From the NCBI GenBank assembly GCA_019694575.1, contig JAIBBR010000010.1, positions 1-64,000 of the forward strand: a stretch of 64,000 bases of DNA, given 5' to 3'. Made by a program: the position numbers and the translations under genes. This DNA is from Myxococcaceae bacterium (GTDB lineage: Bacteria; Myxococcota; Myxococcia; Myxococcales; Myxococcaceae). Positions 2,838-5,637 of the stretch are shown here, in pieces; position 1 is the first letter of the stretch, and every line of letters starts with the position of its first letter. A model generated the notes under the pieces. That model was not told the DNA's origin and searched no databases. It saw nothing but the letters and a program-made list of their open reading frames with translations.

Positions 2838-2901
2838 GGCGCGCTGGCTAACACGGGGCGAATGCTGACACCACTCGCCTGAGGAGACGTCATTAGACAT
2901 A

Positions 2902-2930
2902 GTGGGTATTTTTACGCTAAAAATACCCAC
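2902..2930. promoter_or_regulatory. 29-bp palindrome abutting the ATPase start codon
   Basis: The 13-base arm GTGGGTATTTTTA (2902-2914) and its exact complement TAAAAATACCCAC (2918-2930) flank a 3-base centre CGC. The right arm ends at the base before the GTG start of the DUF4143 ATPase, so it occupies the ribosome-binding-site position. It also lies between the two divergent genes. It could be an operator, a translation-blocking hairpin, or the recognition site of a repeat family that travels with this ATPase. Confidence 0.7.
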
Positions 2931-4091
2931 GTGTATGAACGCTTATTGACGGCTGAATTGGCGGAGGGGACCAAAAGCGTGCTGCTTTTGGGGCCTAGAC
3001 AGGTCGGCAAGTCCACCCTGTTGAAAAGTCTGCGCCCCCAAAGAACGCTCGACCTTTCTTCACCGGCGATCTTTCGCGACTACGTACGCGAGCCTGAACG
3101 CCTCGAGTACGAGTTGTTAGCGCTCCCGCCCGGTCGCCAAACTGTTCTCATTAATGAGGTGCAGCGAATTCCTGGTTTGTTGAACGGTGTTCAAGCGCTT
3201 CTCGATGAACACCGCGGCCGCTTTCGTTTCTTACTGTCTGGCTCGAGTGCGAGAAAGCTGCGTCACGGTCAAGCCAATCTTTTGCCAGGTCGAATCAACG
3301 CCTTTCGGCTTCACCCGCTGGTGGCCCATGAGCTCGGCTCAGACTTTTCATTGGAACGTGTTTTTGCACACGGTTCACTGCCCGGTATCTATGCAGAGCC
3401 TTCAGCCGCCCAGCGAAGCAAAGATCTGCGCAGTTATGTCGATATCTATTTGCGAGAAGAGATTCAGGCTGAAGCGCTGGTGCGAAACGTAGGTGCTTAC
3501 GCGCGGTTACTCGACTGGGTAGCGGCGGCCTCGGGTCGCATCGTCAATGTTCAGAAGTTGGGGAGTGACGCCGGCATCGCGTTCGAAACGGCTCGGCGTT
3601 ACATGGAAGTGTTGGTCGATACACTGGTGGCATTTCAGGTGCCGGCGTTCAAGCGATCAGACAAAGCGCGTCTGGTGGCTCACCCGAAAACTTTTTTGTT
3701 TGATCTCGGTGTTCGCAATGTCTTGCTGCAGAGGCCACTCGAAAACGCCTTGCCTGATGAAAGAGGGCTGCTCTTCGAGCACGTTATCGCCTACGAATTG
3801 TGGCGGCGAATCGATGCCTTTTGGAACACGGCGAAGCTATCGCATTACCGCACGCACGATGGTGTGGAAGTCGACTTCGTACTTGAGATCGGTCAGGAGC
3901 TTTGGGCGATCGAAGTCAAAGCCAGCCGCGACGTCGACAAATCAAATCTCAACCCGTTGCTTCATTTTGAAGAACGGTTTCCGAAATCTCGACGCCTCGT
4001 TGTCTACCTGGGAGCGCGGCCGCAAAAAATAGGTACCGTCGAAGTGCTGCCGTTCGAAAAGTTCGTGTCGTTGCTGCCACTCAAGGCGTAG
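2931..4091 (+). CDS. AAA-family ATPase with C-terminal DUF4143 (nuclease-like fold)
   Basis: 386 residues. The P-loop GPRQVGKS is at residues 21-28. The usual Walker B aspartate is replaced by asparagine (VLINEVQ, about 72-78). The sensor segment [10 protein letters not shown] is at 101-110. The C-terminal DUF4143 region has a PD-(D/E)xK-like pattern, D315 followed by EVK at about 328-330. The family is widespread and frequently transferred; its cellular role is unresolved. The GTG start follows directly on a 29-bp palindrome with no Shine-Dalgarno, and no other in-frame start precedes the P-loop. Base composition is more AT-rich than in the neighbours, suggesting acquisition. It converges on gspN with a 13-base gap. 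Confidence 0.88.
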
Positions 4092-4104
4092 CAAGGGCCG
4101 CTGC

Positions 4105-5076
4105 TTACGGAAAGCGCGGGCGGCCCAGGTTGCCGGTGAGCCGGCCCATGCGCCAGTTGGCGTCTTTGGGGTCGGGTGGAACCATCGCCAGGGCGCCGCC
4201 GATCATGCCCAGACGCTTCACGAATTCAGGGTCGGTTTTGAAGCGAATCTCGAGGTTGGGCTCTGAATATTCCATGCGTTTGGCCAGCTTCATTGTTCCG
4301 CTGATGGCGAGCTCGACGTCGGTGCTCTTGCCCTTGAACTCTTCAACCGTGCCGACGCCCTTGTCGAACTTCACTTTGCCCGTGACGTCGCCGAGCACGA
4401 TTTTCGGCATGTCCATGGGGGTCGGCTCGGGGCCAAACATTGGCAGCGCGAGTGAAAGCGTGCCGCCATTCAACGCCATGGCCTTGGTGTCGACAGTCAC
4501 CGTACCTGAGGCCTGGCTCAAGTCGGCGCCTGTGCCGTCGCCCGCCACGGGCATTTCGAGCGCGGCGGCCCCTGAAATGCGGCCGGCCAGTTGCAACCCG
4601 CTATAGCCCTTGATGCTGGGGCTCGAGAGATCGATATCGTCGAGCGCCACGTTCACGTTGGCGTTGCCGAGCACGTCTTTCTTTGCCGCGGGGCCGGCCA
4701 GCGCCATTTTCAAAAGCGCGAAGCCGTTCACCGTGAAGCCGAAGCTGCCGTCGAAAGCATCGCCTGACACTTTTACGCCCGGGGGCAGCAGCGTCGGCCG
4801 CACGCTGATGCTGTCAATTACCAACGGCTCAGGCGCAGCTTCTTGGCCCGGCGCGAGCTTCTTGGTGATCTTCAGCCCCTTGGCCTTCACCGAGAAAAAC
4901 CCGGGGCCCACCGAGCTGAAGGTGAGGTACCAACCATTGTTGTCGGCTTCTTGCTTGAGCCGCTCACCGAACAGCTCGTAATTGAAGGTGAGCAAGAATG
5001 AAATAATCAGCGCGAGAACACTGAAGGCGGCGTAACCGGTGATGCGCTTCCACAGAGCGATGTTCTTCGTCGGCAT
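4105..5076 (-). CDS. gspN: Type II secretion system protein GspN
   Basis: 323 residues. One N-terminal membrane segment (about 15-35) is followed by a periplasmic domain rich in beta strands, as in the GspN family and with similarity to the AsmA-like GspN of delta-proteobacterial clusters. GspN is an accessory part of the secretion machine in the inner membrane and is absent from many T2SS operons. It is the last gene of the gsp operon, 3 bases after gspM. The family call rests on position and topology as well as sequence, because GspN proteins are poorly conserved. Confidence 0.85.
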   Translation of the reverse strand: MPTKNIALWKRITGYAAFSVLALIISFLLTFNYELFGERLKQEADNNGWYLTFSSVGPGFFSVKAKGLKITKKLAPGQEAAPEPLVIDSISVRPTLLPPGVKVSGDAFDGSFGFTVNGFALLKMALAGPAAKKDVLGNANVNVALDDIDLSSPSIKGYSGLQLAGRISGAAALEMPVAGDGTGADLSQASGTVTVDTKAMALNGGTLSLALPMFGPEPTPMDMPKIVLGDVTGKVKFDKGVGTVEEFKGKSTDVELAISGTMKLAKRMEYSEPNLEIRFKTDPEFVKRLGMIGGALAMVPPDPKDANWRMGRLTGNLGRPRFP

Positions 5077-5079
5077 GGC

Positions 5080-5637
5080 CTAGTTCTTCATTCGGTACGT
5101 CGAGATGGTCAGCCACGCCGAGAGCGTTTCAGACGTGGGTCGCGGCTCGATGCGCATGTATTTCACCTTCACCACGCCCGGGCCTGCCTCGAGCGCGGCC
5201 AAGAAGTCGGTCAGCCGGTTCAAGGCGATGTCGTTGAGTGTCACTTCGACCGCGCTTTCGACAATGGTGTCACCGTCGAGCGTGACATCGCCCTTGGGGT
5301 TGATCATCGGTATCGACAGCCCGGCGGCTTTTCCCTTGTCTTCGACAAAAGTGGCAAGGCGCACATTCGAGGCGCGCAAGCTGAGCTCTACCTGCTGCCG
5401 GGCGCTGTCGGCGTCGCGAAACGTAGCGGCCAATTCTTGTACCTGCTCGAGCTGCGCGGTCTTCTCTTTGATGTGCGAGCGAATGGTGTCGGCGCGGGCG
5501 CTGATCGAAAATGTGGTGATGAAGATGATGAACCCCAACACCGCGACGATGGCGCCACCCACCATGCGGCGTTCACGTTGGGTGAGCGTCGAAAAATAAG
5601 CCTGTGCATTGGCGATGGCTGAACGAAGTGATTCCAT
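5080..5637 (-). CDS. gspM: Type II secretion system protein GspM
   Basis: About 185 residues. A short cytoplasmic segment is followed by one membrane helix (VGGAIVAVLGFIIFITTF), then a predicted coiled coil and a ferredoxin-like periplasmic domain, the standard GspM layout. GspM pairs with GspL in the inner-membrane platform. I take the ATG at 5637, two bases after the gspL stop and preceded by GGGGAG, instead of a longer frame that overlaps gspL. Confidence 0.9.
   Translation of the reverse strand: MESLRSAIANAQAYFSTLTQRERRMVGGAIVAVLGFIIFITTFSISARADTIRSHIKEKTAQLEQVQELAATFRDADSARQQVELSLRASNVRLATFVEDKGKAAGLSIPMINPKGDVTLDGDTIVESAVEVTLNDIALNRLTDFLAALEAGPGVVKVKYMRIEPRPTSETLSAWLTISTYRMKN

Follow-up and report, generated by a model that had tools for sequence, protein, structure and literature searches.

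The window analysed here is a stretch of 64 kb, in which a palindrome at 2902..2930 lies directly upstream of an AAA_14/DUF4143 open reading frame (ORF; plus strand, 2931..4091) of the PDC-S01 family, which encodes 386 amino acids and begins with a GTG start codon without a Shine-Dalgarno sequence. The palindrome, which has no strand of its own and which we propose to be an operator, reads GTGGGTATTTTTA-CGC-TAAAAATACCCAC, and its arms (2902-2914 and 2918-2930) are 13 nt each, 100% complementary and separated by a 3-nt loop. With loops up to 11 allowed, it is the sole palindrome with 13-bp arms in the 64-kb window, and none was found in 8 dinucleotide shuffles of the window. No further copy of the 29-mer at 2902-2930 (up to 3 mismatches) was detected within the window, and no further copy of its 25-bp core (up to 2 mismatches) in the 5.28-Mb genome. 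The palindrome adjoins the start codon with zero gap because the ORF begins at GTG 2931, and this junction has no room for a Shine-Dalgarno sequence. The initial annotation described an exact 13-bp-arm palindrome at the 5' edge of an AAA/DUF4143 gene, with which the arms, the position and the Pfam matches agree. It also stated that the palindrome replaces the ribosome-binding site, which is correct in that a Shine-Dalgarno sequence has no room there, but too narrow, as the palindrome appears to cover a complete leaderless promoter as well.

The ORF matches the Pfam families AAA_14 (E 4.5e-18) and DUF4143 (E 2.4e-30; residues 177-332). An AAA domain, a helical lid, a winged helix and a C-terminal domain are distinguished in the AF2 model (mean pLDDT 92), and the protein models as an AAA ATPase with a winged helix and a PD-(D/E)XK nuclease. 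The AAA ATPase domain (2967..3335, plus strand like all features of the ORF; residues 13-135) contains the Walker A motif GPRQVGKS. The winged-helix domain (3489..3704; residues 187-258), taken from the AF2 model, is the proposed DNA reader and includes a predicted recognition helix (3582-3620; residues 218-230). Searched alone by Foldseek, this segment (mean pLDDT 71) gave weak matches including the ROK, MarR and CzrA repressors, the best at E 0.03. The C-terminal domain (3753..4088; residues 275-386) is nuclease-like, with the PD-(D/E)XK nuclease Cdn1 as the top Foldseek match and Card1 further down; among 59 sequences, the putative catalytic residues D315 and E328 (in E328-x-K330) are invariant and K330 is kept in at least 90%.

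The PDC-S01 models of PADLOC match the window protein (best E 6e-66), and a PHROGs search of the protein gave no match. PDC-S01 is a phage-defence candidate of PADLOC-DB, an ATPase fused to a PD-(D/E)XK domain, and in passages of PMC12988326 it is described as the fourth most common candidate defence system of prokaryotes; for most PDCs, the same passages report activity against phage as unvalidated and validation as pending. The window protein matches both the models of PDC-S01 (AAA_14 + DUF4143; COG1373) and the stated domain plan. The family had initially been called a widespread orphan of unknown function, of which the first part stands, for it is very common, but the second has to be amended by its listing as the candidate PDC-S01, and we infer a defence role of the ATPase. 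For a member from T. thermophilus HB27 (TT_P0211), a 6.6-fold rise in expression was reported, the one expression record found in the family, and only when a plasmid and Argonaute were both present (PMC4406477).

Palindromes and promoters in the DUF4143 family

About 17-20 related matches exist in the genome, and most family genes of the genome carry an upstream palindrome of like size and position but with other letters, for example TATCGTCATTTATCATGATAAATGACGATA (L006), AGTTCCTTTTTTTAATATAAAAAGGAACT (L010) and TGGTGTTTTTTAAAGTCGTGAATTAAAAAACACCA (L012). We summarized a family sample of 205 genes, which includes the genome's own genes, same-order relatives, 80 named loci from many phyla and genomes of the phylum. 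Start codons were assigned mechanically, and a palindrome was counted if its end fell at -12 to +6 of a candidate start codon and its score was 8 or higher. In this sample, which is weighted towards the window's relatives, start-abutting palindromes precede 55% of family genes (113 of 205), compared with 6% of the neighbour genes of the same loci (24 of 400; Fisher p 1.7e-41) and 1.6% of dinucleotide shuffles. At a score of 10 or higher, the numbers are 59 of 205 and 5 of 400, respectively. Members of a subfamily are non-independent, for which clustering at 50% protein identity is a partial correction, and 33 of 60 cluster representatives pass the threshold; in the G000 loci, 11 of 15 family genes have a start-abutting palindrome. 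Palindromes are thus enriched beside other family members, as the initial annotation would have it, but with differing letters.

The same annotation supposed a fixed palindrome, and this did not hold, since the letters differ between members and each subfamily has its own version. A search with the 29-mer is the wrong form of test because the letters vary among members, and in its exact form it would falsely refute the idea because every subfamily carries its own palindrome. What is conserved across the family is the architecture and not the letters.

About 45% of the family genes fall below the palindrome threshold (score 8), which suggests that their arms have diverged, that the start codon was misassigned or that a different operator, for instance tandem repeats, is used. 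In a subgroup with longer ORFs (L015, L141, L156, L170 and L194), repeated units such as GGTGGATTTTC / GTGGTTGATTTTC are found upstream of the DUF4143 gene, where they stand beside, or in place of, a single palindrome and may form a multi-site operator. On pTT27 of Thermus thermophilus HB8 (L229), only a weak palindrome lies near the DUF4143 start, with short repeats around ATGCTAAATTGGCAT, and this gene is a possible exception to the palindrome rule.

Upstream of the window gene, a putative -35 hexamer TAGACA (2894..2899, plus strand) matches TTGACA at 5/6 positions and lies 18 bp from a putative -10 hexamer TAAAAA (2918..2923, plus strand), which is situated in the right arm and ends 7 nt before the start codon. 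This promoter, TAGACA-18-TAAAAA-7-GTG, is weak (9/12), and a simple, stricter promoter scan reported nothing at the window site because it requires T at the last -10 position. When the family is aligned on the palindrome centre, TTGACA-like hexamers peak 18-20 bp to the left without a mirror peak, a -10-like T-A-W-W-W-T occurs family-wide at +3..+8, and the start codon follows at about +15 to +17. In the copy on a Pseudomonas mendocina plasmid (L231), the ATG is where the palindrome ends. The palindromes therefore seem to sit over a sigma-70-type promoter, with the -35 at the left edge and the -10 in the right arm. Leaderless placement was defined as a -10 ending 3-9 nt before the start codon, with a threshold of at least 9/12, and such promoters were found for 48% of palindrome genes (start near palindrome end), against 2% among neighbour genes and 1% among shuffles. 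Shine-Dalgarno motifs are rare in the family, at 3 of 75 versus 48 of 325 in the comparison. A dyad over the core promoter, no Shine-Dalgarno sequence and a -10 that fits a leaderless start are all found here, and transcription of the family genes is probably leaderless.

Insertion of the unit and reading of the palindrome

Five same-family relatives (L222, L223, L224, L226 and L227) show empty sites: a gspN-like gene stands next to an FHA/sigma-54 regulator there, both run in one direction, the spacers are short and a DUF4143 gene is absent. In the window, 2902-4091 lies between these two genes in the opposite direction. Only 64 nt and 13 nt are left over on its flanks, and therefore the inserted unit between the genes adjacent in relatives is the palindrome with its promoter plus the ORF (2902..4091, plus strand). 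This supports the initial suggestion that the palindrome travels with its gene. On the minus strand (1179-2930), the palindrome is followed by an ATG at 2900-2898 in frame with the FHA/sigma-54 regulator, and the insertion may have given the regulator gene an N-terminal extension or a second promoter.

COG1373 is included in a published list of genes horizontally shared among gut bacteria (PMC10782964). On an Acinetobacter baumannii plasmid (L232), a few genes separate the DUF4143 gene (3926-5158) from a BREX locus that includes brxC, and an integrase and an IS3 transposase are nearby. Among the genomes G000, G009, G031, G034 and G046, some have at least 18 DUF4143 matches and close relatives have none. 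DUF4143 occurs in 72 of 193 phylum genomes, and the number per genome is strongly variable, up to at least 18 among the matches listed.

Such a patchy multi-copy distribution, together with the clean insertion of palindrome and ORF and the nuclease-like domain, would also fit a palindrome that marks the end of a mobile element, or its target site, the element being moved by the AAA + PD-(D/E)XK protein and the promoter overlap being secondary. REP palindromes serve RAYT transposases in this manner, as a cruciform or an inverted-repeat end. However, no second copy of the palindrome was found at the 3' end of the gene and none elsewhere in the genome (up to 2 mismatches), no conserved sequence was found in the window clade beyond the -35 or after the stop codon, and the promoter geometry is strong, so that we regard this explanation as unlikely. 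An IS or RAYT/REP-type element with terminal repeats was rejected as a candidate, paired terminal repeats and repeated palindrome copies being absent.

Similarity between palindromes is compatible with repression and activation alike. The protein could bind the palindrome to activate its promoter, or both activate and repress it, like phage CI or the C proteins of restriction-modification systems, and it is consistent with this that promoter strength varies and that some promoters, including that of the window (9/12), are weak. However, a repressor usually sits where this site does, over the -10 and the start region; on this argument, which is one from position only, we infer repression and consider activation quite unlikely.

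The symmetry of the palindromes was evaluated within subfamilies. Across 17 sister-clade operators (consensus near CATGTGGTTATTTTACGCTGTAAAATAACCACATG), pairing is kept at 199 of 238 positions, compared with a maximum of 168 in 2000 right-arm shuffles, and 30 pair types occur versus a shuffled maximum of 28, indicating that the arms change together within subfamilies. The window clade consists of 12 members, 11 of them at 54-64% protein identity to the window protein, from metagenome-assembled genomes (MAGs) labelled Gammaproteobacteria, Acidobacteria, Gemmatimonadota and Planctomycetota. In this clade the core GGGTAAA..TTTACCC is nearly invariant, and its covariation signal is weak because little varies there; conservation reaches as far as a TTG in the -35 position to the left and the stop codon to the right. 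MAG labels are possibly wrong, as for one relative labelled Klebsiella pneumoniae. Relatives labelled Gammaproteobacteria and Gemmatimonadetes (L047, L048 and L050) have a sequence after the stop codon in common, which suggests that MAGs were mis-binned or that one locus is shared, and phylum labels need caution.

As an alternative, the palindrome might act in the RNA, as a 5'-terminal hairpin of the mRNA that blocks or tunes translation or mRNA stability, and a transcript of the palindrome would fold strongly (-19.5 kcal/mol, z -4.9). However, from the promoter geometry the left arm would lie upstream of the transcription start and thus stay untranscribed. The arm mismatches in the family palindromes (G:T 16, A:C 14) have no G:U preference, which points to double-stranded DNA instead of an RNA hairpin, and on these grounds the hairpin is very unlikely. 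A structured RNA element was rejected as a candidate, as an Rfam search of the palindrome gave no match and pairing is not G:U-biased.

Operator similarity climbs with protein identity across the family. At equal protein identity, the operators of same-genome paralogs are no more alike than those from other genomes, which argues against a regulator provided by the host. The core pattern is present in at most one copy per genome in the genomes of 11 relatives. No conserved partner gene was seen in 80 flanked loci, where the largest cluster consists of antisense ORFs over the gene itself, though this null result is weak because ORF calling is noisy in GC-rich DNA. At other defence loci, control lies with a separate regulator such as BrxR or CapW, but a host-encoded regulator that binds the palindrome in place of the ATPase is most unlikely here, where operator similarity tracks the protein and not the genome, related operators occur in MAGs with differing phylum labels, a conserved neighbour gene was not seen and none of the genomes searched has more than one copy of the site.

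The specificity of the site is instead linked, as far as these comparisons go, to the gene's own product. The initial idea that the gene is regulated by its own site gains support both from this tracking and from the enrichment of palindromes at the start codons of the family. The two operator types are matched by two types of predicted recognition helix, one resembling GYETARRY (window clade) and one resembling PRQSAVRY (sister clade). In partial Mantel tests, the AAA domain, the lid and the winged helix all correlate with operator similarity and the nuclease domain does not; mapping of the specificity to one domain was given up, as these tests isolated no single domain. Operator similarity tracks the AAA domain and the lid as well as the winged helix, and the gene's own protein probably binds the palindrome, most likely via the winged helix.

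A proposed self-controlled operator cassette and its relation to known systems

The palindrome, its recurrence in the family, the covariation of its arms, the promoter geometry, the protein-linked specificity and the insertion as a unit are all seen in the comparison of sequences. Taken together, it is likely that the palindrome is a self-specific operator, that the ATPase uses it to keep its own leaderless promoter repressed, and that the site travels with the gene. The palindrome would then serve a horizontally moving, defence-type cassette of one gene as its autogenous operator. Transcription would start at or beside the start codon, and the encoded protein, as a dimer or oligomer, would occupy both half-sites, most likely via the winged helix. 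The bound protein would block RNA polymerase, leading to a low level of the AAA/PD-(D/E)XK nuclease, and the promoter would open if the protein is titrated, lost, switched by a nucleotide or ligand, or newly in the cell. As each subfamily has its own half-site, same-genome paralogs should not cross-regulate. Since promoter, operator and start signal lie within about 40 bp, the cassette should work at any landing site.

A wider and doubtful reading is that PDC-S01 proteins are single-polypeptide defence modules, which combine a nuclease effector, an ATP-driven switch and a DNA-reading regulator, and that the private palindrome serves as both operator and arming site. An invader would in that case disturb the promoter-bound complex, and the freed ATPase would derepress the gene and activate the nuclease.

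No literature that connects a palindrome with DUF4143, by name or by Pfam accession, was found, and no description of the control of the PDC-S01 family, in a search with most subscription journals and preprints outside its scope. The PDC-S01 passages of PMC12988326 do not mention a promoter operator, a leaderless start or autoregulation by a winged helix.

The operator would offer a handle on the unexplained PDC-S01 for which the sequence alone suffices. From it, PDC-S01 proteins are predicted to read DNA with a defined specificity; thousands of members would each come with a ready candidate binding site, and a simple reporter assay could test the family. An operator cassette would also explain why a lone gene can function when it has moved between phyla.

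Several known systems resemble this arrangement in part. REP/RAYT elements are alike in that a gene has its own flanking palindrome and a scattered distribution, but they differ from the window palindrome, which has neither repeated copies in the genome nor a second flanking copy. Autorepressing toxin-antitoxin operons and the WYL-type BrxR/CapW regulators keep a defence effector low via a palindromic operator, with a separate antitoxin or regulator gene. They share a palindromic operator at their own promoter, whereas no partner gene was found here. The C proteins of restriction-modification systems have a small self-contained promoter with overlapping palindromic operators, are often leaderless and control themselves, which allows entry into a new host. 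These systems are alike in their compact, self-controlled palindromic promoter; however, regulation by C proteins falls to a small, dedicated helix-turn-helix protein encoded next to the nuclease gene, whereas in the window one polypeptide would be sensor, effector and regulator.
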